Shown piece by piece: positions 2,739 to 32,121 of a stretch of DNA of 32,976 bases. A program made the translations under genes and the position numbers. Where the stretch lies: IMG/VR virus record IMGVR_UViG_3300021170_000053, positions 1 through 32,976 of that record. One strand, 5' to 3'. Position 1 is the first letter of the stretch. Every line of letters begins with the position of its first letter. The notes under the pieces are model-generated. The model searched no databases. It saw only the letters and a program-made list of their open reading frames with translations, and was not told where the DNA came from. The stretch comes from a virus.

Positions 2739-3841
2739 CCGCAATGCTGCTTCAGACCTACCTCCGGGCTGGCAATGACCCAGCCACGCTGACCACGCGC
2801 TACGGCATCGCGGTCAAGCCGCATGCTCGATACTCGTACCTGCTGATGTTCAAGTACGACCAGATCAACAGTCCGTTCGCCGAGCCTATCGTGCGCGAGT
2901 GCCGCGGCGTCATCCTCGACAGTTCCAGCGATTGGGCTATCGTCTCGCGGCCATTCGACAAGTTCTTCAACCACGGCGACCCGCTAGCCGCGCCCATCGA
3001 TTGGTCGACCGCGCGCGTGCAAGAGAAGCTCGATGGCTCTCTGATTTCGCTCTACTGGCACTTCGGCGAGTGGCAGATCGCATCGAGCGGCACGCCAGAC
3101 GCCAGCGGTCACGCCGGGACCTCGGCGCAGACGTTCCGCCAACTGTTCCTGGAGGTCATGGCGCGTCACGGATACGAACTGCCGCCCGTGCGCTTCGCCC
3201 ACTGCACGTTCATGTACGAACTGATGACGCGGTGGAACCGCATCGTCGTCCAGCACCCGGAGCCGCGCGTTGTTCTGCTCGCCGTGCGAGAGACGGAGAG
3301 CGGCGTCGAGATCCCGGTGGAGGCGTTCAAGTCAGACCCAATGCCGCCCGTCGTGCGCTCGTTCCCGCTCCAGTCGTTCGACGACATGGCCGCGACGTTC
3401 AGCACCATGAATCCGCTGGAGCAGGAGGGCTACGTCGTGGTCGACGCACAGTCGAACCGCGTGAAGGTGAAGCATCCGGGCTACGTGGCGCTGCACCACA
3501 TGATCAGCAGCACCGGCCCCAAGGCCATCCTGGACATCATCCGCAAGGGCGAGACGACGGAGTTGCTCACCCACTTCCCGGAATGGACAGAGGAGTTCAA
3601 CGCCATCCAGGCGAAGTACGATGCGCTCGTAAGCAAGGTCGACGCCGACTACGAGGCGCACAAGGGCATCGAGAGCCAGAAGGAGTTTGCCATTGCGGTC
3701 AATGCGCGCACCGAACTGCCCGCGGCGATGTTCTACAAGCGCAAGGGTGCTGGCACGACCAAGGACTTCCTGGCCGCGTGGCACGTGAAGCACCTCATGG
3801 ACAAACTCGGGCTCCGCGAAGTGCCGCCCGGCGAAGCCTAG
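2735..3841 (+). CDS. rnlA: T4 Rnl1-type RNA ligase
   Basis: ATP-dependent RNA ligase that would join 5'-phosphate and 3'-OH RNA ends through enzyme-AMP and RNA-adenylate intermediates. At 368 residues it matches T4 Rnl1 (374). Visible motifs: the RECRGVI and SRPFDKFFNHGDP region before the active site (residues 54-83), nucleotidyltransferase motif I KLDGSL with the adenylated lysine at K98, motif III FMYELMTRWNRIVV (159-172), motif IV EGYVVVD (231-237), and motif V VKVKHPGY (243-250). The C-terminal third is helical, as in Rnl1. The start is the ATG in an ATGA overlap. In T4 this enzyme repairs tRNA cut by host anticodon nucleases and also aids tail-fibre attachment. Its place in an assembly operon, with no polynucleotide kinase in the window, leaves either role open. 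Confidence 0.9.
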   Translation: MTAMLLQTYLRAGNDPATLTTRYGIAVKPHARYSYLLMFKYDQINSPFAEPIVRECRGVILDSSSDWAIVSRPFDKFFNHGDPLAAPIDWSTARVQEKLDGSLISLYWHFGEWQIASSGTPDASGHAGTSAQTFRQLFLEVMARHGYELPPVRFAHCTFMYELMTRWNRIVVQHPEPRVVLLAVRETESGVEIPVEAFKSDPMPPVVRSFPLQSFDDMAATFSTMNPLEQEGYVVVDAQSNRVKVKHPGYVALHHMISSTGPKAILDIIRKGETTELLTHFPEWTEEFNAIQAKYDALVSKVDADYEAHKGIESQKEFAIAVNARTELPAAMFYKRKGAGTTKDFLAAWHVKHLMDKLGLREVPPGEA

Positions 3842-9845: not shown

Positions 9846-9881
9846 AGCTCGGAGACGGGCTGATTGGGCGCCACCCGGCGC
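9846..9881 (+). promoter_or_regulatory. Tandem hairpins before the major capsid gene
   Basis: The 61-nt gap holds two short stems. The first is AGCTCG/CGGGCT (9846-9851 and 9856-9861) with a GAGA (GNRA) tetraloop and one G-U pair. The second is GCGCC/GGCGC (9868-9872 and 9877-9881) with loop ACCC. They lie just 5' of the capsid Shine-Dalgarno (CGGAGA, 9881-9886) and may process or protect the abundant capsid message. Confidence 0.5.
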
Positions 9882-9893
9882 GGAGACAAAGCG

Positions 9894-11288
9894 ATGGCGA
9901 CTGGAACCCAGGTGGCAGAGCCCAACGCAGCTGCTGCGGCATATGCCAAGCGACTCGCTGAGGAGGCGACCAAGGCGCACACGACCGCGCCGCCTCCCGG
10001 ATCGCGGACCGACCTGCCCAGCAGCGACGTGGCGCCATTCACCAAGGCCTACACGCCTTGGCAGAACAGCATCAAGTCGATGCCGGCGCGGCAGGGCCAG
10101 GACTTCTTCGACTACCACGACCCTCGTCTGACCGACAAGAACGTCAAGTCGAAGCTGCCGCACTTCACCGCCGGCGCCGGCACGGATGCGATCCGCTGGC
10201 TGCTCATGTCGCGGTCCGCCAAGTCGCTCGGCGGCAACCCGATGGAGAACATGCAGAAGGCGGTCGAGGAGAGCGACGACGCCCGCATGAAGGCCGGCTG
10301 GTCGAGCCTCGACAAGTACCTCAACAGCCTCAACGCCATGGACCGCAAGGCCCTCGTCGAGAGCACGATGGTCGACGGCGGCGCGCTGGTGCCGCCCGAG
10401 TTCAGCGCCGAGTTCATCTACCTGCTCCGCGCGAGCACGGTGGTCCTGGAGAGCGGCGCGTCGACGATCAACATGAAGTCGTCGCAGCTGACCATCGGTC
10501 GGCAGAACCTCGCGGGCACCGCCTTCTACGAGGGCGAGACCCAGGCCGTCACGGCCAGCCAGCAGCAGTTCGGGCAGCTCCAGTTGCAGGTGAAGAAGCT
10601 GATGGCGCTGACGCCGATCAGCAACGACCTGCTCCGCGATGGAGGCCCTGACGTCGAGGCCATCGTGCGCGACGACCTCATCCAGGTCGTGGCTCTGCGC
10701 CAGGACCTGGCGTGGCTGCGCGGCGATGGGACGTTGGGCACCTGCAAGGGCATCCTGAACCTCGTCAACAGCCTCAACCTGCTGCAGGCGACGCAGGGCG
10801 GCTCGAGCGCGACGTTCCAGGAGATCGCCTTCGACGTCGGCCGGCTCATCGCCGCGCTGAAGAACGCCAACGTCGACAAGTTCGCCCCGGAGACCCAGTG
10901 GGGCTGGGTCATGTCGCCGCGGTCGGAGCAGTACCTCCGCACCGTCAGCTCGACGTTCGGCGTCTTCCCGTTCAAGGACGGGATGGACCGCGACGGCGAG
11001 TTCTTCGGCATCCAGTACAAGACCACCACGGCCGTCCCCAACACCCTGGGCACGGGCGGCAACGCCTCCGAGGTCTACCTCGTCGCGTGGCCCGCGGCGG
11101 TGGTCGGCATGAACATGCCGCTCGAGCTGCTGGTCTTCCCGAACGGCACGGCGCCGGACCTCAACGGGACGATCATCTCGGGCATCAGCAACGACATGAC
11201 GTGGCTGCGCGCGATCACGCGTCACGACTTCAAGCTGCGCTACGACCTGGGCGCCGCGGTCCTGCAGAACGTGCTCTGGGGCACCTAG
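9894..11288 (+). CDS. HK97-fold major capsid protein
   Basis: Main shell protein, 464 residues. ATG 9894 has GGAGA about 7 nt upstream; an upstream TTG would add ten residues without support. Residues 1-150 are Ala/Lys/charged and helix-prone, the delta-like region normally removed by the prohead protease. From about residue 160 the HK97 pattern begins: GGALVPPEFSAEFIYLLRAS (N-arm/E-loop approach), the TAFYEGETQAV strand, KKLMALTPISNDLLRDGG (spine helix region), LRGDGTLGTCKGILN and the A-domain end FKLRYDLGAAVLQN. The gene follows the protease/scaffold directly and is bounded on both sides by hairpin pairs. Confidence 0.93.
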   Translation: MATGTQVAEPNAAAAAYAKRLAEEATKAHTTAPPPGSRTDLPSSDVAPFTKAYTPWQNSIKSMPARQGQDFFDYHDPRLTDKNVKSKLPHFTAGAGTDAIRWLLMSRSAKSLGGNPMENMQKAVEESDDARMKAGWSSLDKYLNSLNAMDRKALVESTMVDGGALVPPEFSAEFIYLLRASTVVLESGASTINMKSSQLTIGRQNLAGTAFYEGETQAVTASQQQFGQLQLQVKKLMALTPISNDLLRDGGPDVEAIVRDDLIQVVALRQDLAWLRGDGTLGTCKGILNLVNSLNLLQATQGGSSATFQEIAFDVGRLIAALKNANVDKFAPETQWGWVMSPRSEQYLRTVSSTFGVFPFKDGMDRDGEFFGIQYKTTTAVPNTLGTGGNASEVYLVAWPAAVVGMNMPLELLVFPNGTAPDLNGTIISGISNDMTWLRAITRHDFKLRYDLGAAVLQNVLWGT

Positions 11289-11386: not shown

Positions 11387-11986
11387 ATGGCACTGCCCCT
11401 TCCCAAGGATCTCAAGTCGGAGATGTCGCTCCGCCCCGCGATCATCCCCGGCGCGACTGGCCCCACCGCCTCGCTCGTCGCCAACAGCGGCGTCGCGATG
11501 TCGACCAACCAGTCGGCCAACCTCGCCATCATCGATCGCCAGGGTGAGTCGACCTGGCCGAGCGGCGGCGGCACAGGCGGGCCCACCAACGCGGACCTCG
11601 CCCAGAGCGCGGTCTTCTCGCTGCAGGTCGACACCGGCGCCAACACGCCGGTCCTGACCAGCTGCACGGCGAACATCGAGACGTCGAGCGACCAGGTCAC
11701 CTGGGCCGCCTACGTTCCTCCGACCGTGCCGGGACTCGGCTCGAACCCGGGCGCCCTCGTCGCTGGCACGGCCTGCGGTCTGGCCACCCAGCTCGGCTGC
11801 ACCGTCCTGGGGCCGACCGGCATCGTCAACATCGCGGTCGACCTGAGCGGCAGCACCTGCAAGCGGTACATCCGCATCAACCCGAAGCCGACGTTCTCGG
11901 GCGGCTCCTCGACGGTGTTCGTCGAGAGCTACTGCGCCCTGGGTGGCTTCGCGGCCACCCCCGTGCAGACGCCCACCAACCCGTAG
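11387..11986 (+). CDS. Candidate capsid decoration or head-surface protein
   Basis: ATG 11387 has a strong Shine-Dalgarno (AAGGAGA). The 199-residue product is rich in Thr, Ser, Gly, Ala and Pro with beta-strand-like segments (AVFSLQVDTG, VNIAVDLSGS, YIRINPKPTF, STVFVESYC) and no signal peptide. A central part resembles an Ig/jelly-roll-type beta sandwich in composition only. Its place right after the major capsid gene, its own hairpin-bounded message and its beta-rich low-charge composition fit a decoration protein on the shell. No family-specific motif was recognised, so this is position-based inference. Confidence 0.55.
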   Translation: MALPLPKDLKSEMSLRPAIIPGATGPTASLVANSGVAMSTNQSANLAIIDRQGESTWPSGGGTGGPTNADLAQSAVFSLQVDTGANTPVLTSCTANIETSSDQVTWAAYVPPTVPGLGSNPGALVAGTACGLATQLGCTVLGPTGIVNIAVDLSGSTCKRYIRINPKPTFSGGSSTVFVESYCALGGFAATPVQTPTNP

Positions 11987-15979: not shown

Positions 15980-17176
15980 ATGGCTCTCGTCTCTTCCGCA
16001 GGATTCCTTGGTCAGGCCCAGGTCGCCCCCGACAGCGCGGGCGCGCCCGGAACGCAGGCAGCGCTCTCTGAGACGACCGGCTGGACGCTCACGCCGAAGC
16101 TCAACACTCCCGATGCGAGCGTGTTCGTTGCCGAGGGCATGGGCACGGTCATGGCGACCCGCGACCCCGAGCCGAGCATCAACGGCATCTACGACTTCGG
16201 CGACGGCGGGCTGACCAATATCATCCAGTCGGTCTTCCCGAGCATCATCGGGTCGCCCTTCGTGCCGCAGACGCGCGTCTGGCCGCTCCTGCTCGAGTCG
16301 TCGACGGCCAGCACGCTCGCCTCGGCCTACGTCTCCGAGCTGACGTTCGACACGAGCGACCCCAACGCGCTGACCAAGTTCACGGCCAAGTTCGGCTTCG
16401 ATGGCACGCCGACGACCCCGTACACCACGGCGACGACCTCGTCGGTCATCGCGCCCACGACCTCGCTGAATCCGGGCGTCGCGTACAAGGCCAGCGTCAG
16501 CATCAACCTGGTCGGCGTGTCGACCGCGTTCACGACGACCACGCTGACTCAGATCGGCGCGACCAACAGCTACCAGATCCCGACGGGCAAGCGCGCCCTC
16601 GACGTCACTGTCGCGCTGGTGCTCGGCGGCGGCGCCACCGCGGGCAACAGCTACACGGTGGACGCCTTCTTCGGAGTCGTCACGCCGACGACGCCGTACA
16701 CCGCAGCCCCCACGGTCGTCTCGGGCAGCTGGTGGCCGATGACGAAGCTGATCGGCGTGACGAAGTGCACGACGACGATGACGTTCAACCTGGACGCCAG
16801 CGTCACCGACATCAACCAGGCTGGCTACGTCAAGCGGGCGCCGACCACGCGCGACGTCAAGATGTCGCTCATGGTCGTGGGCCTCGCCACGAGCATCCCG
16901 CAGCAGAGCGGCGGATCCAACATCGGAGCCGTCACCTGGCGCGCGCTCTGGGAAAACCGGCAGCTCATCCTCGTCGAGCACGACCCTGATGGCCAGCAGC
17001 AGCGCGTCTTCCGGGGCTGGTTCTACATCGACCAGATCCCGGAGAGCCTCACCGTCGACAAGGTCGTCCAGCAGAGCATCAGCCTCAAGGGCGCCAACCA
17101 GACACTCCGAGGCGCGGTGGGCAACAGCGGGTCGGGAAAATTGGTCTACGCCGGGTTTTCATGCGGTGCAGTTTGA
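15980..17176 (+). CDS. Major tail (tube) protein
   Basis: ATG 15980 follows GAGGTGA. The 398-residue product is beta-rich, Thr/Ser-rich and lacks long helices. It shows the pattern of siphophage tube proteins: SETTGWTLTPKLNT, then a VMATRDPEPSINGIYDFGDG segment, then a strand-rich core and late WRALWENRQLILVEH and GWFYIDQIPESL. A central Thr-rich region (about 150-245) may be an Ig-like insertion. The last dozen residues (GKLVYAGFSCGAV) lie in sequence that looks AT-richer than the rest and immediately abuts the antisense HNH gene, so the natural C-terminus may have been altered by that insertion. No sheath features were seen. Confidence 0.7.
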   Translation: MALVSSAGFLGQAQVAPDSAGAPGTQAALSETTGWTLTPKLNTPDASVFVAEGMGTVMATRDPEPSINGIYDFGDGGLTNIIQSVFPSIIGSPFVPQTRVWPLLLESSTASTLASAYVSELTFDTSDPNALTKFTAKFGFDGTPTTPYTTATTSSVIAPTTSLNPGVAYKASVSINLVGVSTAFTTTTLTQIGATNSYQIPTGKRALDVTVALVLGGGATAGNSYTVDAFFGVVTPTTPYTAAPTVVSGSWWPMTKLIGVTKCTTTMTFNLDASVTDINQAGYVKRAPTTRDVKMSLMVVGLATSIPQQSGGSNIGAVTWRALWENRQLILVEHDPDGQQQRVFRGWFYIDQIPESLTVDKVVQQSISLKGANQTLRGAVGNSGSGKLVYAGFSCGAV

Positions 17177-22280: not shown

Positions 22281-23177
22281 ATGTCGCTCATCACCTTGAA
22301 CGGGGTATCAGCCAACGTCCACCTGACGAACGGAGTCTCGCGCTCCGAGGTTGAGATCGGCCCAGGGCTCGAGCAGGCCTACGATGGCACCGCCAATCGC
22401 GACACCTACGGCTACAAGCGCGAGTGGAACTTGTCCTACTGGGTCGACACCCAGGCCAACGTCGCCGCCTTCCGCAACCTCCTCAACTCGGTCACGGCCC
22501 CTGCGTTCTCTGGATCCGATCACTTCCAGATCGACAACCAGCCGTTGCACTGGCGTGTCGACACGAGCCTCGCCTATAGCGACAAGGGAGCCCAGAGTCT
22601 CACGCTGAGTGGCTCAACGCCGGCAACGCTCGCGCTGAGCGGAGGCAAGTGGGCCACGGGTGGTGTGATCAGCCTGCCTGCGGCGGTCAGCCAGGCCGAC
22701 TTCGGCATCGGTTACTCGCTCGGGGTGACGGGCGGCATCTTCGGATGCTGGCACAACGACGCGGGCACCAACAATGCCTACCTCTTCGGTTGGACGGGCA
22801 CTGCGTCTGGGTCCGTCGTCATCAAGTTCATCTATCTCAATGGCGTCGCACAAGCGCTCGCGTTCCCATCCTGGTTCAGCCTGGGAGCGACGCAGTTCGC
22901 CATCTTCGGCACTGGTGTCGCCACCGATGCGATCAGCGACCCGTTCTTCTACCCATTCGCACCTGGCGATGCGACGACGTGGGCCACAGGCCTGAGCACC
23001 CAGCAGCTCGCAGGGCAGTGGCCAAATGCCTGCTACCTCGCGCTGGCGGGCTCGCTCGGCACGGCGAACGTGATGTGCATCGCTCCGGCGAGCAAGGTCT
23101 ATGTGGGCCAGCTACCAGGGCAGGGAGCCTTTTCTGAGACCAATGAGCTCATGGATTTTGTGCTCCGTGAGGTGTGA
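22281..23177 (+). CDS. Distal tail protein, paralogue A
   Basis: 298 residues, starting 3 nt after the tape measure stop. The N-terminus (ITLNGVSANVHLTNGVSRSE, then YDGTANRDTYGYKREWNLSY) has the style of Dit-like proteins that form the ring at the tail tip, and the position after the tape measure fits. A long C-terminal beta domain follows, with GGIFGCWHNDAG, DPFFYPFAPGDATTW and a final ELMDFVLREV. The next gene's C-terminal half matches all these landmarks in order (IMGCWHFDSG, DVFLYPFLPASVSVW, EWLDFVLQQE), so the two are tandem paralogues. Confidence 0.65.
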   Translation: MSLITLNGVSANVHLTNGVSRSEVEIGPGLEQAYDGTANRDTYGYKREWNLSYWVDTQANVAAFRNLLNSVTAPAFSGSDHFQIDNQPLHWRVDTSLAYSDKGAQSLTLSGSTPATLALSGGKWATGGVISLPAAVSQADFGIGYSLGVTGGIFGCWHNDAGTNNAYLFGWTGTASGSVVIKFIYLNGVAQALAFPSWFSLGATQFAIFGTGVATDAISDPFFYPFAPGDATTWATGLSTQQLAGQWPNACYLALAGSLGTANVMCIAPASKVYVGQLPGQGAFSETNELMDFVLREV

Positions 23178-23179
23178 AC

Positions 23180-24673
23180 ATGGCGGGCACGAATAATTCA
23201 GCGCTGTTCGTCGCGGCGCGCACGTCGAAGCTCTCGGGCGCAACGTCGCTGATCCCAGCTGCGCAATCGCACACCATCGCTTTCTGGTTCAAGGTCGATT
23301 CGATCATCGCGAACGCGACGATCTTCGACAAGGGCAAGAGCGGCGACGACTACACCGTCAACATGGACGGGTCGGGCAACATCCAGGTCTTCTACGCTGC
23401 CGGAGCCTCGGTAACCCTTGGCACAGTGGTCACCGGAGCGTGGCACCACATCGCCCTCGCCAACACGTCAGGGACCAGCCTCCAGCCATACTTTGACGGG
23501 GCTGCAGTCGGCGGCGCAGTCGTGACTACGGGGCCCACCAATGCCTCGTCGTTCGTCTTCGGCGACGACCCGGCCTTCACTCCTCGCTACTTCTCGGGAC
23601 GTGTCGCCGAGGCTGCGGTGTGGTCGGGCACGGTGCTCAGCTCAGGACAGGTTGCCGCAGTCGAGGCCCTCGCCGCCGCGGGTCAGACGCTCAGCTCCGC
23701 AGCAGTGGCGCCGACCCACTACTGGAACATGTTCGTGCTCGCGAGCGGCGCCTATGCCGACCAGATCGGCGCCATCCCGCTCACGGCGACCAACGTCGTC
23801 ACGGTAACCGACTCGCCCATTGCGGTGACCAACGCGGTTGGGACTGGCTACCTCTTCATCAACGGCATCCCGCTGACGCCGCGGCTCGACACCGGAATGT
23901 CTCGTGCCGATCAGGAGATCGGCAACGACGGCCAGCGTGTCATCGACGGCACCCTCCAGCGCGATACACGCGGGTTCAAGACCAACTTCTCGTCGACGAC
24001 GACGCCTCAGTCGCAGATCGATGCGCAGGCCTGGCGCCAACTGATCCGCGGCGACGGGGACCATTGGTCGTTCACGGCACCCAGCCTCGTCAGCGGCATC
24101 ATGTTGAGCGACAAGGATGCCAACGTCATCACCATCACTGGCACCGCCAGCTACAACACCTCGTTGGGCAAGTACGGGTCGGGCTTCATCGCGCTGCCCG
24201 CAAGCACGGACACCGCAGCCTTTGCTGGCTACAACCTGGCAGCGGGTTGGATCATGGGCTGCTGGCACTTCGACTCGGGGGCGTACCACAGCTACCTGAT
24301 GTTCGGCAGCCAGGCAGGCGGAGCCGTCACCTACAAGGACGGCGTGCTCAGTGGCAACCCGCCGTGGGCGCAGCCAACCTACGGACCCAACGTGCTCACG
24401 TTCACCGGCACGGTCGGCAACGCCTTTGCGGCGATCAGCGACGTGTTCCTCTACCCGTTCCTGCCCGCGTCGGTCTCGGTCTGGGCGGCAGGGATGTGGA
24501 CCTGGCAGCAGACGCAGCTCTGGCCGACCAGCCCCTATCTTCAGAGCAGCGGCGACTTCGGGTCGTTCACGTGCCAAGGCAAGGCAGAGGCGTCGAAGCT
24601 GTTGCAGATCGCCCTGGCTGGCGCATGGAACGTCAACGCCGAGTGGCTCGATTTCGTGCTGCAGCAGGAATGA
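23180..24673 (+). CDS. Distal tail protein, paralogue B with added LamG-like domain
   Basis: 497 residues from ATG 23180 (GAGGTG about 5 nt upstream); a GTG at 23174 overlapping the previous stop is an alternative. Residues 1-215 form a LamG/concanavalin-A-like beta sandwich: HTIAFWFKVDS, DKGKSGDDYTVNMDGSGN, GAWHHIALANTSG, YFDGAAVGG, YFSGRVAEAAVW. This fold usually binds carbohydrate. Residues about 220-497 (GYLFINGIPLTPRLDTGMSR onward) repeat the whole of paralogue A. The protein thus looks like a duplicated tail-tip subunit that gained a glycan-binding head, a likely contact with host surface polysaccharide. Confidence 0.7.
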   Translation: MAGTNNSALFVAARTSKLSGATSLIPAAQSHTIAFWFKVDSIIANATIFDKGKSGDDYTVNMDGSGNIQVFYAAGASVTLGTVVTGAWHHIALANTSGTSLQPYFDGAAVGGAVVTTGPTNASSFVFGDDPAFTPRYFSGRVAEAAVWSGTVLSSGQVAAVEALAAAGQTLSSAAVAPTHYWNMFVLASGAYADQIGAIPLTATNVVTVTDSPIAVTNAVGTGYLFINGIPLTPRLDTGMSRADQEIGNDGQRVIDGTLQRDTRGFKTNFSSTTTPQSQIDAQAWRQLIRGDGDHWSFTAPSLVSGIMLSDKDANVITITGTASYNTSLGKYGSGFIALPASTDTAAFAGYNLAAGWIMGCWHFDSGAYHSYLMFGSQAGGAVTYKDGVLSGNPPWAQPTYGPNVLTFTGTVGNAFAAISDVFLYPFLPASVSVWAAGMWTWQQTQLWPTSPYLQSSGDFGSFTCQGKAEASKLLQIALAGAWNVNAEWLDFVLQQE

Positions 24674-24681
24674 GGTGATCC

Positions 24682-27600
24682 ATGCGTACGCTCACCACAG
24701 CTCAGAGCCAAGTCGTCACCAACCAGGTCCGCCACACGGCCGCGCGCTTCCGCTGCCGCGATGCAGTGACGCCAACCACGCTCGCTGCCGGATCGAGCGG
24801 AGCCACCGCACCGGCCACGCTCAACGTCGCCTCGACTGCCGGATTCGCATTCCAGGGTACGGGCAACTGCAAGTTGAGCAACGGCGGGTATGGCGTCTTC
24901 ACCTGGACGGGCAAGAGCGGCACCACGTTCACCGGATGCACCTGGAACACCACGACGACGCTAGGTGCGACTGGGGTCGCTGTCGCCTCGACGCCGGACT
25001 ACACGTTCATCGGCGGAGCGAACGCGGTGGCTCAGCAGAACTGGCTGAAGGACATCTCGCGCACGGAGAACATCGACAGCTACATGGCGACGGCGACGAT
25101 CCATATCGTTCGCGACAACTATGCACAGAGCACGGCTCCGCTGATGACGCAGTCCGTGATCAACAACAACGGTCCGGCGTTGGCGCTGCATCGTGAGTGC
25201 TGGATTGAGACTGCGGTACTGCCGATGAACGGCATCGCTCCGGTGGCCACCGATTGGATCATGGTGTTCCACGGCTTCACGGACACCGTCGATGCGGCGA
25301 ACGATCCGATCACGATCACAGCCTCGGACCTCTGCGGCGAGCTGCAGAAGACGCAGATGGAGCTGGCCTACGACTACGGCATCTGGGATCCAGGCCACAC
25401 GCTGATCGTCGGCTACCGCGCTCAGGCGGCGGGCCAGTCTGCGGTCCCGCCAGCCGACAACACCTTCGCCTACTGGTTCGAGGTGACGACGGCAGGCACG
25501 ACGCAGGGAGGGCCGTGGAAGCCCAACACCGCCGTCATCAGCACGGGTGGCGGTGGCATCGGCGGGCTCGGTGCCATCGGCGATGTCGTTTCGCCGACCG
25601 TTCTTGCATCAGGCGGGCAGCAGACCTACTGGAAATGCACTACGGGGGGCACGACGGGCGCCACAGAGCCAAACTGGTCTGCCTTCTCCACCTCGAACCC
25701 AACCGTCACCGACAACGGCGTCGTCTGGACGCAGATGAATATCGACGCCGCTGCTGGCACGGCGGCCATCCCGGACCCGCTGACGACCTACCTGGCGGGA
25801 GCAAATCCGGGCGGCACTGGCACTGGTGACGGCCAGACCATTCCCGAGTTCGGGAGCTCGACCCTGGTCTGGACCCTGCGCATCCCCCGGGCACGAGCGA
25901 CGTCGCATGCCTACACCGCAGGACAGGTCATCGTCACCACCAACGGCAACCTGACCCAGTATTGGGTCTGCGTCGTTGGTGGCACTTCGACGTCAACGGC
26001 ATCGACCGCTGGCTTCCCGCTGACGCCGACTCTTGGCCAGGTCGTCACCGATAACACGGCGTCGGGCGGCTCGCTCTCGCTCGTGCAGTGGAGTGCGATG
26101 GGGACGCCCGGCGGCAACCTCGCCGAGGTCGTGATCAAACAGTTGCTCAACGACTTTAATGCTCGCATCTCGATGACGCTGGTCGTCGTACCCAACGGTA
26201 GCCAGCCCAACACGGGTTTCTACTTCGGTCCCTACCGCCAGCAGCAGGAGGACGTGCTCTCGGCCGTGACCGCCCTGGCGCTTCAGGTTGGCTACGACCT
26301 TCGGATGCTGTGGAACGCATCGATTGGCGACTTCTCTCTGACGATGTCCTACGTCAAGCGACCGCAGACGACGCAGCTCGCATCGGCCAGCGCTGGAGCA
26401 TCGCTGCCTGTGGGGACGCTGACAGTCGCGAACACCAACGGCTTCGCATCGAGCGGTACGCTGACGGTGCCGACGACAACGGGGATTTCGAGCATCACCT
26501 ACAGCGGCTTGACGGCGACCACCTTCACTGGCTGCTCGGGAGGGTCCGGCACGCTTGGTGTCGTCAGCTCGCGCGTCGTTGCTGTGCCGGTGGTGAGCCC
26601 GTCGGAGACCTACGCGGCGTACTACTACAAGGACATCCAGACGCTGAAGCAGGACATTAGCCTGATCCGCAACCGCGGCGGGCTGACGTACACGGACAAC
26701 TCGTACATCAACGGGTTGGCGAGCTCGTACGACCTCACGGTCAACTCGACGCCGCAGCGCAAGTACATCACCGACAGCGACCCTCAATCATCGCAGCAGA
26801 GCGCGTACGGTCCGCTCTACTTCGCCGTCAGCGAGGGCTCGACGCTTCAGACCGACAACCCGACGTCAGCATTGGCGTTCTTGGATGCCATCATCTCGGA
26901 CCTGTCGCAGCCCGTCCTGAATCAGACCGTGTTGATGAAATACCAGCCACAGACGCAGATCAACGACCAGGTCAAGATGCTGGCGAACTTCGTTCACTAC
27001 GACACCGACCAGACCGAAGCGATCGTCTCTCAGACCGACAACATCAGCGCCAAGGCGGCAACGACCACGCTCGGCCTGCGCGGCAACCCGACGGCGGGAT
27101 TTCGCAAGTACCACAACAAGGCTGTCGCCCAGGGCAACGTGCCGGTGCCGGTCATCAAACCGCAGCCGCAGCCGACGGGTCAGTTGGCGATCGGGACCTT
27201 TGCAGGCGGCGTGCTGACCTTCAACGTGCCGATGAAGCCAGCGCTCAACTGGCAGTACACGGAGGTCCACCTCTCCACGGTCTCGGGCTTTATCCCAAGC
27301 GCTGCGACGCTTGCGACGGGCGGTATCGCCTTCTCGGGTGCATTCACGCCGCAGGGTCTGCCTCCGGGCGTGAAGCACTACTGCCGTCTCGTGCATCGCT
27401 TCAAGTTCAACACGGCGAGCTACCAGCCGACGCCGCAGTTCTCGTTCTTCACGCTCGGCCAGAGTCTCGTCTATGGCATCACATCCAACACGGTTGCGGC
27501 GGCGACGTCAGGCACGGGCGGCGAGAATTTCACCACGCCACAGCCCATTCCGCTGGGCACCAAGCTCTCAGATCCCGGAGGCGTGTTCAACACGTCAACG

Positions 27601-27990
27601 AGCACGTGGACGCCAACTGTGCCTGGCAGGTATCTGCTCAACCTTCAGGTCAGCTTCAGCTGGGGCACAGGCAACACGCGAGCTGAGTCCATCCAGATTG
27701 GCGTGCTGAGTAGCATCGCAGGAAATTACTTCTCGCTTGTGGTGCCGGGCGCTGCAGGAGGCGGAGCGTTCGGCCCCGTCACCGTGGCCATGCAACCCCT
27801 CATGTTCAATGTGACACAGAGCCAGATAAACGGCGGATTCAACGTGGTGATGAACGTGAACATCGCAGGTGGCAACCTGACGGGTGCTCCGGCGGTCGGA
27901 ACCTTCCAGACGGCCACGGGCGGCACCTCATACGGCGCGACCTCGGTGTCCGGCACGCAACTCTCGATCGTGCAGATCCTCGACAGCTGA
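24682..27990 (+). CDS. Large modular tail hub / receptor-binding protein
   Basis: 1,102 residues. ATG 24682 has GAGGTGAT upstream. The N-terminal region (about 1-30 and 105-260, with NWLKDISRTENIDSYM and HGFTDTVDAANDPITITASD) looks like a tail hub/baseplate core. Inserted beta modules are visible: two copies of an AxLxVAxTxGF...TTFTGC unit (about 31-100 and 566-635), a CTTGGTTGATEPNW...DNGVVW unit (about 310-350) and a weaker relative near 400-470. Residues about 830-925 look FN3-like. The end (about 930-1102, with PLGTKLSDPGGVFNTSTSTW and VPGRYLLNLQVSFSWG) resembles a C1q/TNF-type jelly roll, a common receptor-binding tip. Probably the main adsorption protein; the target is unknown. Confidence 0.65.
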   Translation: MRTLTTAQSQVVTNQVRHTAARFRCRDAVTPTTLAAGSSGATAPATLNVASTAGFAFQGTGNCKLSNGGYGVFTWTGKSGTTFTGCTWNTTTTLGATGVAVASTPDYTFIGGANAVAQQNWLKDISRTENIDSYMATATIHIVRDNYAQSTAPLMTQSVINNNGPALALHRECWIETAVLPMNGIAPVATDWIMVFHGFTDTVDAANDPITITASDLCGELQKTQMELAYDYGIWDPGHTLIVGYRAQAAGQSAVPPADNTFAYWFEVTTAGTTQGGPWKPNTAVISTGGGGIGGLGAIGDVVSPTVLASGGQQTYWKCTTGGTTGATEPNWSAFSTSNPTVTDNGVVWTQMNIDAAAGTAAIPDPLTTYLAGANPGGTGTGDGQTIPEFGSSTLVWTLRIPRARATSHAYTAGQVIVTTNGNLTQYWVCVVGGTSTSTASTAGFPLTPTLGQVVTDNTASGGSLSLVQWSAMGTPGGNLAEVVIKQLLNDFNARISMTLVVVPNGSQPNTGFYFGPYRQQQEDVLSAVTALALQVGYDLRMLWNASIGDFSLTMSYVKRPQTTQLASASAGASLPVGTLTVANTNGFASSGTLTVPTTTGISSITYSGLTATTFTGCSGGSGTLGVVSSRVVAVPVVSPSETYAAYYYKDIQTLKQDISLIRNRGGLTYTDNSYINGLASSYDLTVNSTPQRKYITDSDPQSSQQSAYGPLYFAVSEGSTLQTDNPTSALAFLDAIISDLSQPVLNQTVLMKYQPQTQINDQVKMLANFVHYDTDQTEAIVSQTDNISAKAATTTLGLRGNPTAGFRKYHNKAVAQGNVPVPVIKPQPQPTGQLAIGTFAGGVLTFNVPMKPALNWQYTEVHLSTVSGFIPSAATLATGGIAFSGAFTPQGLPPGVKHYCRLVHRFKFNTASYQPTPQFSFFTLGQSLVYGITSNTVAAATSGTGGENFTTPQPIPLGTKLSDPGGVFNTSTSTWTPTVPGRYLLNLQVSFSWGTGNTRAESIQIGVLSSIAGNYFSLVVPGAAGGGAFGPVTVAMQPLMFNVTQSQINGGFNVVMNVNIAGGNLTGAPAVGTFQTATGGTSYGATSVSGTQLSIVQILDS

Positions 27991-28027: not shown

Positions 28028-29854
28028 ATGCTCGCACCCATCGTCGTCGGCTCTCGCAAGCCTCACCCCGAGGTGGCGCGGCTCTGCGCCGCGGCCGCCG
28101 CGGCCTGCCAGCTCGGAGACCTCAAGGAGGCAGAGCGCCTCTGCCACGCAGCGCTCGACATCGACTCGAGGTGGAGCGAGGCCGTCCACATCCTCGGAGT
28201 CGCGCTGGCGCGCTTCGGCAACCATGGCGGCGCCGTCAAGCGGTTCCGCCAGGCCATCGCGCTGCACGGCAACGTCGCCGAGTACCACGCTAACCTCGGC
28301 AACGCGCTCTACCTGACCGGCGACTCACCGGGGGCGGTGCAGAGCTACAAGGAGGCACTCCGGCTCGATCGCGACAACTACAGCGCCCACTTCAACCTGT
28401 CCGTGATCTTCACCGAGCAGGGGCGGTTCACCGAGGCCGAGGAGCACTGCCGCGCCGCCATCGCGCTGCATCCCGAGCGGTTCGAGCCGCAGTATGGGCT
28501 CGGCGTCATTCAGCGGAGCCTGGGCCTGGTCCAGGAGTCGATCGCCCAGAACGAGCTCGCGGCCGAGCTCGGCACGGACTGGCGCCCGCGCACCAATGCG
28601 GCCTTCGCGATGCTCTATAGCGACCGCCACACGCCGGAGCAGGTCGCTGCTGCGCACCGCGCTGCAGGCGCCTTCATCGAGGGCAAGGTCGGTCGACCCG
28701 TGGTGCAGTTCAAGAACGACCGCAGCTTCACGCGCCGCATCCGCGTCGGCATCGTCTCGGCCGACCTGCGGCGCCACGCCGTCGCCTGCTTCCTGCTGCC
28801 GCTCCTGCGCAACTATGACCCCAAGACGCTCGAGATCACGGCCTACGCCGAGGTGGCTCGACCCGACGACTGGACTGAGGGCATCAGGGATCTGTGCGGG
28901 CGCTGGTGCTCGACGGTCGGCTTCAGCGATGACCAGGTAGCCAAGCGCATCCGAAGCGACGAGATCGACGTCCTGATCGACCTGAGCGGCCACACGCAGG
29001 GACACCGCCTCTTCGCCTTTGCGCGCCGCGCCGCGCCCGTACAGGTGACCTGGCTGGGCTACCCGCACAGCCTCGGCATGAAGCAGATCGACTACCGGCT
29101 CGTCGACGCCATCACCGACCCGCCCGGGCACGACGAGTTCGCGACTGAGAAGCTCGTCCGCATGGACCCCGGCTTCCTCTGCTACGACCCGCCGGTCCAG
29201 AAGCTCCCCATCTCGCCATCCCCCTGGCGCAAGCGCGGGTGCGTGACCTTCGGGTCGTTCTCGATGCTGCCGAAGTTGAGCCCCTCCTGCCTCGAGGCCT
29301 GGGCGGAGCTGCTCAAGCGCGCGCCGTCGTCGCGGTTGCTGCTGAAGACCCAGGCCTTCGGCGACGACGCGGCCAGGAAGCGCGTTCGCTCGGACTTCGA
29401 GAGGCTCGGCGTCGACCCAGAGCGCATCAAGGCGGTGGGCTTCGAGAAGCGCTGGAGCTCCGCCCTCGAGCGCTACGGCGACGTCGACATCGCGTTGGAC
29501 CCGTGGCCCTACTGCGGAACGACCACAACAATGGAAAGTCTATGGATGGGCGTGCCCGTGATCTCGCTCAAGGGGGCCACCCACCACAGCCGCGTCGGAG
29601 CGAGCATTCTGTCGCAGGTGGGGCTCGAGGATCTCGTCGCCGCCAACGTCGAGGAGTACGTAGCCAAGGCCCTCGAGCTCGCGACGGACCCACTGCGGAT
29701 GCACATGCTCCGAACTGGGCTGCGCGAGAAGATGCGAGCCTCGCCGCTCTGCGATGGAGAGGCGTTCGCGTCGCGGTTCGAGGATACGGTCCGCGGACTC
29801 TTCGCGACCTGGTGTGACGCACAGGCGTTGGCAACAGCGCCGTCGCTGAGGTAG
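28028..29854 (+). CDS. TPR-containing O-GlcNAc-transferase-like enzyme (GT41)
   Basis: 608 residues. Residues about 14-185 are four to five TPR units (DLKEAERLCHAALDID, AEYHANLGNALYLTGDSPGA, SAHFNLSVIFTEQGRFTEAE), which bind the protein substrate. Residues 236-600 are a SPINDLY/OGT-type catalytic domain: RVGIVSADLRRHAVACF (H250 at the conserved His position), DVLIDLSGHTQGHR, RAAPVQVTWLGYPHSLG, LLLKTQAF (K440 at the usual Lys), GTTTTMESLWMGVPVI and HHSRVGASILSQVGL. It would move a sugar, typically GlcNAc from the UDP form, to Ser/Thr of proteins in the cytoplasm. No Shine-Dalgarno precedes ATG 28028; a TAGACT box 5 nt upstream could be a promoter. Targets may be virion or host surface proteins, an inference from neighbours. 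Confidence 0.9.
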   Translation: MLAPIVVGSRKPHPEVARLCAAAAAACQLGDLKEAERLCHAALDIDSRWSEAVHILGVALARFGNHGGAVKRFRQAIALHGNVAEYHANLGNALYLTGDSPGAVQSYKEALRLDRDNYSAHFNLSVIFTEQGRFTEAEEHCRAAIALHPERFEPQYGLGVIQRSLGLVQESIAQNELAAELGTDWRPRTNAAFAMLYSDRHTPEQVAAAHRAAGAFIEGKVGRPVVQFKNDRSFTRRIRVGIVSADLRRHAVACFLLPLLRNYDPKTLEITAYAEVARPDDWTEGIRDLCGRWCSTVGFSDDQVAKRIRSDEIDVLIDLSGHTQGHRLFAFARRAAPVQVTWLGYPHSLGMKQIDYRLVDAITDPPGHDEFATEKLVRMDPGFLCYDPPVQKLPISPSPWRKRGCVTFGSFSMLPKLSPSCLEAWAELLKRAPSSRLLLKTQAFGDDAARKRVRSDFERLGVDPERIKAVGFEKRWSSALERYGDVDIALDPWPYCGTTTTMESLWMGVPVISLKGATHHSRVGASILSQVGLEDLVAANVEEYVAKALELATDPLRMHMLRTGLREKMRASPLCDGEAFASRFEDTVRGLFATWCDAQALATAPSLR

Positions 29855-29866
29855 GTTCTCGGGGTA

Positions 29867-29921
29867 GCTCCGAGGCGCAGCGGTAGGGCGCCTGCCGTAC
29901 GCGCCAGCCCATCCTCGGAGC
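29867..29921 (+). promoter_or_regulatory. Stem-loop burying a Shine-Dalgarno
   Basis: A perfect 9-bp inverted repeat GCTCCGAGG (29867-29875) and CCTCGGAGC (29913-29921) encloses 37 nt with competing GGCGC/GCGCC stems. The GGAG at 29917-29920, 6 nt before ATG 29927, is the likely Shine-Dalgarno of the next gene and lies wholly in the 3' arm. Folding would block translation. The inner stem AGGCGC/GCGCCT (29873-29878 and 29888-29893) would compete with the outer one, so a two-state switch is possible. Confidence 0.6.
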
Positions 29922-29926
29922 CGCCC

Positions 29927-30387: not shown

Positions 30388-32121
30388 ATGCGCCGCCTCG
30401 CGACATTGCTGGCGCTGCTCTGTGCTGGGTCAGCTCAGTCCCAGGCGGTCGGCGGCGACCTGGACGGCATCCTCAAGAGCCTGGCGCGTTCGCCCGTCGT
30501 CTTCCGCGACTCGTTCGTCGCCAGCGGTCCGCTGATCCTCGACACACCCAACACGGTGGCGCACGTTACCTGGAACGGCACCCAGCTCGTCGACAGCTTC
30601 GGCAACACCTGGACGCAGAACGGCACGGTGCCGCAGGTCGCGGGCGCGACCGTGAGCCCGATGTTTCCCAGCGGGTTCAACAGCGCGCCGAGGAGTGGGG
30701 CGGGGCCGTACTCGTCTAGCAACTACTATTCGGCGGCCATCGCGACGCCGATGAATTTCGCAGCCGCCCCGTTCTCGTTCTGCGAAGTGTTCATCCCCAA
30801 GGTGGCGGTTGCTGGTGCATCCATTGGAGCCAGCCTCAACGGGTCTGCGACCACGGGCTATGGATGGATCACCGACGGCACCGGGCTCGGCATGAACTTC
30901 TACGCGAACTCGATTGCCACCCTTGCAGCGGCGGGGTCCGCGGTACTCAATGGCCTCAACATCTTCTGCGGCGGTAATGACGGAACGAACACGATCTCCA
31001 AAGGCAATCTGATGGCGATGGCCGTGACGAACACGGCAACGCACCCGTATACGCAATCCGCGGCGACACCAGTGCAGCTTGGGTACAATAGCACCGAGGT
31101 AGCGTTCAGCGGAACGATACTGGAGGCGTGGTACTCCACTGACGTTCCGACGGACGCACTCTTCACCGCCATTCAACAGCGCGTGCTCAACGAGGTCGCC
31201 GACACTGGTCAGATCATCGCAGACGTGCGCGCCAGCACCACGACCTACCGCACCAACGATGTCCGCTGGATCGCTCCGGCAAACGTGCCGACTGTCGAGA
31301 TGCTCTCGGATGGCGGCGGTGGACTGCTGGTCACGGCGGCGGCGACGGAGTACCTACTCAATAACACCGCTCCTGCCACGCAGACCACGGCCTCGCTCGG
31401 GACCGGCGCCTACACCGGCAACTCGCTCGGCACGGGAGGAGTCACCTTTAGTGTCGTAGGGGCGACAGCGACAGGGCTACCCTGCACGACGACGACATTC
31501 CTAGACGTAGGAGAGGCTGGCGACTGTCATTTCACGGTAACCGTGGCCGGGACGGTGCTGGCAACCGTCGTTGGTTCGGTCACGTTCGAGCAACTGACGA
31601 ATACGGCCTATCGAGTGCCGGACATCATCGCAGCAGGCACGGCCACGACGGTCATCGCCGATGTCATCAGCGTCACCAATCCAGCCACCCTCAATGGCAA
31701 GCCGTGGTGCATGGGAGCGACCGTTGCGCCGTACGCCGGGACTTGGGCTGTAACTGGGTCGGCAATCTCGGCCGGCGCGAGCCACACGGGTGCGAACAGC
31801 GTCGAGTTGGACATCAACGCCTCGCTCGCGGACATCGGGCTTGTCTACGATGCGACCCCGACACTCAAGCAGCAGTCGTTCACGTTGGCCGACTCCAAAG
31901 CGCACAAGCTGCTCGTCTGCAACGCAGCCGGGACGATCACTCAATGGGTCGATGGCGCACTGGTGTCAGGCGCAGGCAGTGGTGCCGGTACGGGGATCCT
32001 TGGCGCCAACCCGAGCACTATCTACCTCGGGAGCGAGGCCGGGGGAACGCCAGGTGGGCAGGCGGTCTATTTGCAGAATGTGCTGATCTGCAACTCGTCC
32101 GCGGGCGGGAGCTGCAAATGA
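30388..32121 (+). CDS. Exported protein with two LamG-like domains
   Basis: 577 residues, starting 2 nt after the upstream stop without a clear Shine-Dalgarno (likely coupled). The signal peptide is MRRLATLLALLCAGSAQSQA with cleavage after SQA. Residues about 38-275 and 415-577 look like LamG/concanavalin-A-type beta sandwiches; the second has HKLLVCNAAGTITQWVDGAL, ILGANPSTIYLGSEAGG and AVYLQNVLICN. A Thr-rich Ig-like part (about 320-410) lies between. Four to six cysteines could form disulphides after export. Such domains usually bind glycans. It may be a surface lectin, a fibre made with a leader, or a host-coat protein. Ends in an ATGA overlap. Confidence 0.65.
   Translation: MRRLATLLALLCAGSAQSQAVGGDLDGILKSLARSPVVFRDSFVASGPLILDTPNTVAHVTWNGTQLVDSFGNTWTQNGTVPQVAGATVSPMFPSGFNSAPRSGAGPYSSSNYYSAAIATPMNFAAAPFSFCEVFIPKVAVAGASIGASLNGSATTGYGWITDGTGLGMNFYANSIATLAAAGSAVLNGLNIFCGGNDGTNTISKGNLMAMAVTNTATHPYTQSAATPVQLGYNSTEVAFSGTILEAWYSTDVPTDALFTAIQQRVLNEVADTGQIIADVRASTTTYRTNDVRWIAPANVPTVEMLSDGGGGLLVTAAATEYLLNNTAPATQTTASLGTGAYTGNSLGTGGVTFSVVGATATGLPCTTTTFLDVGEAGDCHFTVTVAGTVLATVVGSVTFEQLTNTAYRVPDIIAAGTATTVIADVISVTNPATLNGKPWCMGATVAPYAGTWAVTGSAISAGASHTGANSVELDINASLADIGLVYDATPTLKQQSFTLADSKAHKLLVCNAAGTITQWVDGALVSGAGSGAGTGILGANPSTIYLGSEAGGTPGGQAVYLQNVLICNSSAGGSCK

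Follow-up and report, generated by a model that had tools for sequence, protein, structure and literature searches.

Near the tail end of the structural genes of an uncultured phage lies a gene for a GT41 glycosyltransferase that resembles the plant enzyme SPINDLY more closely than the O-GlcNAc transferases (OGT) in both sequence and fold. We favour, at somewhat better than even chances, the reading in which this cytoplasmic enzyme O-glycosylates a virion protein of the phage itself, the first choice being the Thr-rich protein encoded from position 24682. The sequence analysed, hereafter the window, is an IMG/VR linear virus record of 32,976 bases, representing a fragment of the phage. The features needed below are the following:

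2816-3841, + strand: RNA ligase of the T4 Rnl1 type (phrog_562, 5e-50), preceding the packaging genes
9864..11288, + strand: HK97-type major capsid protein (PF05065 3e-31, TIGR01554 3e-35)
11387..11986, + strand: small S/T-rich protein (21.6%) encoded by the next gene downstream of the major capsid gene; by composition a candidate substrate
15980..17176, + strand: 398-aa protein, S/T 22.6% (highest of the set), perhaps a tail-tube protein, judging from its position; candidate substrate
24682..27990, + strand: Thr-rich 1102-aa protein of the structural module, S+T 21.8%, directly upstream of the GT41 gene; candidate substrate by adjacency
28028..29854, + strand: GT41 glycosyltransferase gene, 608 aa, TPR and catalytic domains (Pfam, structure search, AlphaFold)
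28067..28612, + strand: TPR superhelix, residues 14-195, about 5.5 helix pairs (model secondary structure, Pfam TPR)
28718..29836, + strand: GT41 catalytic domain, two lobes, residues ~231-603 (Pfam, AlphaFold model)
28775..28777, + strand: codon of His250, equivalent to SPINDLY H495 and human OGT H558 (alignment/model; PMC9715652)
29273..29275, + strand: codon of Lys416, equivalent to SPINDLY K665 and human OGT K842 (alignment/model; PMC9715652, PMC7949088)
29345..29347, + strand: codon of Lys440, equivalent to the guanine-reading SPINDLY K689; Leu866 in OGT (PMC10027727)
29471..29473, + strand: codon of Arg482, at the position of SPINDLY A731; OGT-like, equivalent to the uridine-reading OGT Arg904 (PMC10027727)
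29510..29512, + strand: codon of Tyr495, equivalent to SPINDLY Y744; Cys917 in OGT (PMC9715652)
29927..30385, + strand: 152-aa protein with a signal-peptide-like N-terminus (from sequence)
30388..32121, + strand: 577-aa protein with a signal-peptide-like N-terminus (from sequence), S+T 20.8%; candidate substrate

Gene, phage surroundings and fold

The open reading frame at 28028-29854 (+) runs from ATG to stop over 608 codons with no internal stop, and its GC3 (0.90) is like that of the neighbouring genes. The phage genes of the window all lie on the + strand (RNA ligase, terminase-like, portal, prohead protease, HK97 capsid, a tape-measure-like protein of 1061 aa, LamG), and the GT41 gene is placed at the tail end, after an unbroken + strand run of structural genes and far from the major capsid gene, which it does not adjoin. 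The first-pass annotation had put the gene in a phage tail operon, and its coordinates proved exact; a continuous phage structural run precedes the gene, which is not in evident bacterial flanking DNA, the possibility that the annotation had set against a phage origin.

The 24682 protein is among the most S/T-rich of the window set; over 49 residues it matches a head-decoration PHROG (phrog_20658, 1.3e-8), and it has no Pfam match, so that 'tail hub', its label in the first-pass annotation, is tentative. Its C-terminus looks C1q/TNF-like by eye, and a structure model of this part reached just pLDDT 35. Three genes follow the GT41 gene (29927, 30388, 32118), at least two of them encoding signal-peptide-like N-termini, and the N-terminus of the 32118 protein is also of this kind. 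Family searches gave no match for the 30388 and 32118 proteins, whose first-pass label 'lectin-like' is likewise tentative. When IMG/VR was scanned with single proteins (GT41, capsid, portal, 24682 and 30388), no direct relative of the phage turned up, and tblastn against 50,697 phage records returned distant matches for capsid and portal and none for 24682 or 30388.

Some further observations concern other parts of the window. A polytopic membrane protein (2-1015), perhaps truncated at the left end of the record, has no family match, and the two proteins just before 24682 (22281-23177 and 23174-24673) apparently have in common a repeated domain recognised by eye ('INGxxxxxRLDxGxSRxxxEIG...DGTxxRDTxGFK'). 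Between the GT41 gene and the next lies a GC-rich hairpin with a tRNA-D-arm-like core (29858-29925), which was rejected as a tRNA or structured RNA, having no tRNA call, no Rfam match and a fold just 1.8 sd better than that of shuffled sequences.

The window protein is a GT41 enzyme. Glyco_transf_41 (PF13844) matches it with E=1e-45 and 156.5 bits against a Pfam cut-off of 25, besides many TPR matches, and in a six-frame search both halves of the catalytic domain score above the cut-off for this profile. An AlphaFold model based on an alignment of 24 relatives has high confidence (mean pLDDT 93.2, pTM 0.90) and consists of about 5.5 TPR helix pairs followed by two Rossmann-like lobes of GT-B type. 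From end to end the model aligns with Arabidopsis SPINDLY (Z 55, rmsd 1.7, 589 residues, 32% identity), as compared with Z 50 for TtOGT, Z 43 for XcOGT and Z ~36 for human OGT, and ranking solved structures by sequence likewise places SPINDLY (E=8e-112) ahead of TtOGT (3e-86) and human OGT (2e-64). A fold search of a library of viral protein models returned partial TPR or GT-B matches and no full-length GT41 match. The initial description of a full TPR plus GT41 catalytic domain with conserved motifs, for which a GT41 profile search had been proposed as a check, is borne out by the PF13844 match over both catalytic halves, by the TPR matches and by the model. The TPR superhelix is expected to bind the protein substrate.

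Active site and sugar donor

SPINDLY activity is abolished by mutating H495, K665, K689, Y744 or E752, or V497 to Arg (PMC10027727, PMC9715652); H495A is inactive (PMC9715652), and K665, equivalent to OGT K842, is essential in both enzymes (PMC9715652, PMC7949088). H495, V497, K665, K689, Y744 and E752 are all kept in the window GT41, as are T747 and T748, and the catalytic His250 and Lys416, whose loss from a structure model would have spoken against the initial reading, are present. S496, N661, N662, H728 and A731 of SPINDLY are replaced by A, S, M, A and R, respectively; changes at S496, N662 and H728 weaken SPINDLY without abolishing its activity, N661 contacts phosphate, and the nearby NTT loop is altered as well. 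Compared with 23 relatives, near-invariant positions are altered (S251A, N412S, H479A, T348S, T349L), A479 standing in place of the guanine-stacking His. These alterations may reflect changed specificity or weakened activity. Judged from its residues, the enzyme probably retains activity, and its specificity may have shifted.

The donor of SPINDLY is GDP-fucose, not UDP-GlcNAc, and it transfers fucose rather than GlcNAc (PMC9715652, PMC10027727). Donors are discriminated by K689/A731/Y744 in SPINDLY versus L866/R904/C917 in OGT (PMC10027727), and the window enzyme has K440/R482/Y495, two SPINDLY-like residues and one OGT-like, matching the OGT signature at one position of three. Prokaryotic GT41s with a mixed signature have been termed an 'intermediate' group (PMC10027727). 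Arg482 is weak evidence, since the residue at position 731 differs freely from one bacterial relative to another in the alignment. A guanine-reading Lys would clash with uridine, and a bulky Tyr with the N-acetyl group, leaving little room for GlcNAc (PMC10027727, PMC9715652).

Arabidopsis SPINDLY (a protein O-fucosyltransferase; PDB 7y4i, 8dti) has TPRs and a two-lobe catalytic domain in common with the window enzyme, but it has about 11 TPRs against about 5.5, and the window enzyme is phage-encoded. The human and Drosophila O-GlcNAc transferases are also GT41s with TPRs and the catalytic His and Lys, but they are 22-25% identical to the window enzyme, contain an extra intervening domain and, of L866, R904 and C917, have only the Arg in common with it. 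Thermobaculum terrenum OGT (TtOGT, 5djs) and Xanthomonas XcOGT (2jlb) are, like the window enzyme, bacterial-type GT41s with TPRs, TtOGT having Ile at the guanine-reading position where the window has Lys. Long named OGTs, both carry Tyr at the 744 position and have poor or no O-GlcNAc activity, and such activity on bacterial proteins is undemonstrated for either (PMC9715652).

Given the mixed signature, the nearness to SPINDLY and the precedent of XcOGT and TtOGT, the name O-GlcNAc transferase used in the first-pass annotation is unwarranted. The SPINDLY counterparts of Lys440 and Tyr495 favour GDP-fucose, and from sequence a GDP-sugar donor (fucose or a relative) is more likely than UDP-GlcNAc. 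Whichever client is assumed, a true O-GlcNAc transferase using UDP-GlcNAc seems rather improbable: membership of GT41, the OGT-like Arg482 and the binding of UDP-GlcNAc analogues in XcOGT structures despite a Tyr at the equivalent position (PMC9715652) would fit it, whereas the clashes predicted between Lys440 and uridine and between the N-acetyl group and Tyr495 (PMC10027727, PMC9715652) and the clearly closer sequence and fold of SPINDLY argue against it.

Viral relatives, their neighbours and their pockets

Profile-guided scans of IMG/VR (56, 20 and 76 loci, overlapping) yielded 75 non-redundant viral GT41s at 73 loci, around which a simple ORF picker predicted the neighbouring genes; these were clustered, and PHROGs served to identify the representatives. 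A major capsid gene lies within two genes of the GT41 gene at 26 of the 34 loci with a recognised capsid gene, against 12 expected when the capsid gene takes a random place in the gene order of its locus (P=5e-8, kinship ignored), in a survey with a crude ORF picker, a simple null and many short contigs, some perhaps misclassified as viral. When each GT41 group (50% identity) is represented by a single locus, this holds at 6/9 against 1.8 expected (P=0.003). The adjoining capsids belong to four families (phrog_10, 283, 3437, 9953), with the GT41 gene either before or after the capsid gene. The orders found are portal-protease-GT41-capsid (L043, L044, L045, L047, L050, L052, L053), capsid-structural protein-GT41 (L051, L054), P22-like capsid-small protein-GT41 (L042), GT41-capsid (L010, L014, L015, L020, L022) and portal-GT41-capsid (L017), and in 102 of 115 cases the neighbour shares the strand of the GT41 gene. 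Elsewhere the GT41 gene follows very large fibre-like proteins (L024, L026, L028, L031) or tail-spike-like proteins (L034, L039), and these loci are a closer analogue of the window than the capsid-adjacent ones.

Ser/Thr richness was considered as a pointer to the client and set aside, S/T content being slightly higher upstream of GT41 (13.9% vs 12.4%, P=0.005) with no excess downstream. GT41 was absent from the 50,697 deposited phage records searched, a collection that may lack the records closest to the window. Our literature search found no paper that describes a phage GT41 or SPINDLY; one hit, PMC9602057, mentions GT41 once, among viral auxiliary genes.

Several loci have unusual surroundings. 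At seven of them (L010, L015, L018, L019, L026, L031, L045), radical SAM/SPASM proteins and a PfkB-type sugar kinase lie within 10 kb of GT41, along with a cytidylyltransferase-like (RfaE-type) nucleotidyltransferase and split TPP-dependent E1/transketolase-like subunits, which together resemble a phage-borne pathway, for a sugar nucleotide or a cofactor, encoded next to the transferase. At L145 (964-9135 and downstream), GT41 is flanked on both sides by S/T-rich-repeat proteins, one of 2723 aa ('LSTTDIQSLKSTQVAAL'), which are obvious client candidates; this record is perhaps a prophage or a bacterial piece. L004 encodes a 364-aa GT41 (151-1245) that has no TPR domain, shortly upstream of apparent packaging and head genes.

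The nearest catalytic domains to that of the window GT41 are viral L003 (51% identity) and L060 from Rhodocyclales (50%). In catalytic-domain trees it falls among bacterial SPINDLY-like enzymes on a long end branch, a placement without good support. Viral and bacterial GT41s interleave, with 17 changes of virus label in a quick tree, at least five of them forced by well-supported branches, which suggests several captures of GT41 by phages. The window pocket, DHAVLSMKKARYTTE, is of ordinary bacterial type: the SPINDLY-like enzymes L060 (Rhodocyclales), L062 (Phycisphaerales) and L138 (Alphaproteobacteria), whose catalytic domains are 47-50% identical to that of the window, have the same pocket type ending in YTTE, although they are chromosomal and often several per genome.

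Unlike that of the window, the pocket that dominates capsid-adjacent phage loci is DHSAW.RKKH.[HQ]G[VI][ED]. In this second type, found in the majority of phage GT41s, the loop P[HQ]xGGV replaces PYxGTTT, with the changes V497A, N662R, Y744 to H/Q, T747G and T748V/I/M, while K665, K689 and H728 stay; its holders are most phage GT41s in L010-L055 and L146-L200, together with bacterial L202-L204 and L213-L221. The pocket was absent from about 120 bacterial GT41s in a first comparison, where 36 viral rows formed one clade; these bacterial sequences had, however, been selected for closeness to the window GT41. A wider bacterial draw contained the same pocket (HSAW...RKKH...[HQ]G[VI][ED]), so that it was rejected as virus-specific, and once the wider rows were added to the tree viruses and bacteria were interleaved. 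In the bacterial genomes G279, G391, G443 and G398, a first look gave 35 to 53 GT41 candidates, several side by side.

Candidate clients and significance

In the mechanism that we favour, the enzyme would be soluble and cytoplasmic, a protein O-glycosyltransferase guided by its TPRs and belonging to the SPINDLY-like GT41 branch, acquired from bacteria and produced late in infection alongside the proteins of the tail. The TPR superhelix would grip an unfolded Ser/Thr-rich stretch of the client, and the catalytic domain would add one sugar to Ser/Thr, taken more probably from a GDP-sugar than from UDP-GlcNAc. The client would most likely be one of the phage's own virion proteins, with the 24682 protein, encoded just upstream, as first choice, and assembled virions would thereby carry surface sugars. 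The TPRs of GT41-family and like enzymes bind clients, and the Ser/Thr sugar is added in the cytoplasm (SPINDLY, FlmG: PMC9715652, PMC7591256). Mycobacteriophages are reported to attach O-linked sugars to their capsid and tail proteins and thereby to lower antibody binding (Freeman et al. 2023, cited in PMC11652166 and PMC12363180); in Che8, Corndog and Myrna a phage-encoded glycosyltransferase acts on these proteins, and in the two citing papers the mycobacteriophage transferases bear no GT41 label, whereas the window enzyme is a GT41.

Decoration of the phage's own particle is probable because relatives of the enzyme in many uncultured phages adjoin capsid genes, and the window and its class alike have the transferase gene among phage structural genes, a criterion for phage virion glycosylation. 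Since the window gene is distant from its capsid gene, this argument from the class carries over only in part. The virion-protein target proposed in the first-pass annotation thus agrees with viral GT41s as a class and less well with the window itself, whose GT41 neighbours are the 24682 protein and exported proteins. Against a virion client, the window pocket, as read from sequence, is not that of capsid-adjacent phage loci, and S/T content by itself is weak evidence for a client.

As the main rival, though unlikely in our view, the enzyme would be directed at the host, glycosylating a surface or appendage protein such as flagellin or pilin in the cytoplasm before export and so changing the receptors or motility of infected or lysogenic cells. 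The window GT41 is of bacterial type, interleaved with bacterial GT41s, and its position at the end of the tail module, by genes for exported proteins, is a common site for accessory genes. An analogy is offered by Caulobacter FlmG, also a soluble enzyme with a TPR domain and a C-terminal transferase, whose TPR domain selects flagellin for cytoplasmic O-glycosylation (PMC7591256); unlike the phage-encoded window GT41, FlmG is chromosomal and adds pseudaminic acid to its flagellin client. The co-location of viral GT41s with capsid genes points away from a host target, as does the window itself, in which no flagellin or pilin gene was recognised. Modification of the downstream exported proteins (29927, 30388, 32118), for instance to aid their arrival at the surface or adhesion, is improbable: their genes are adjacent and on the same strand, and the 30388 protein is S/T-rich, but Sec-exported proteins depart the cytoplasm fast, in an unfolded state, which limits modification, and neither the IMG/VR scans nor the 50,697 phage records yielded relatives sharing 30388. 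That the gene is a captured passenger, functionless in the phage and drifting, would fit the altered near-invariant positions, including the lost guanine-stacking His and N412S, and the long end branch; with the frame open throughout, GC3 like that of its neighbours, a confident fold and every SPINDLY-essential residue kept, we regard it as very unlikely.

To our knowledge, sugar-bearing phage particles are known from just a few cultured phages. Intact TPR-GT41s lie by capsid genes in several capsid lineages, and none was found in deposited phages. We tentatively suggest, as a possibility short of an even chance, that uncultured tailed phages hold a large unreported class of captured SPINDLY-like GT41s which, encoded beside capsid and tail genes, put monosaccharides derived from GDP-sugars, perhaps fucose, on capsids and tails by TPR-guided cytoplasmic O-glycosylation, evolved several times. 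If so, virion glycosylation would be common and repeatedly evolved, through an enzyme family famous in plant and animal signalling, and, because each enzyme would have a candidate client encoded next to it, these phages would provide simple bacterial systems for how TPR-GT41s choose their clients and donors.
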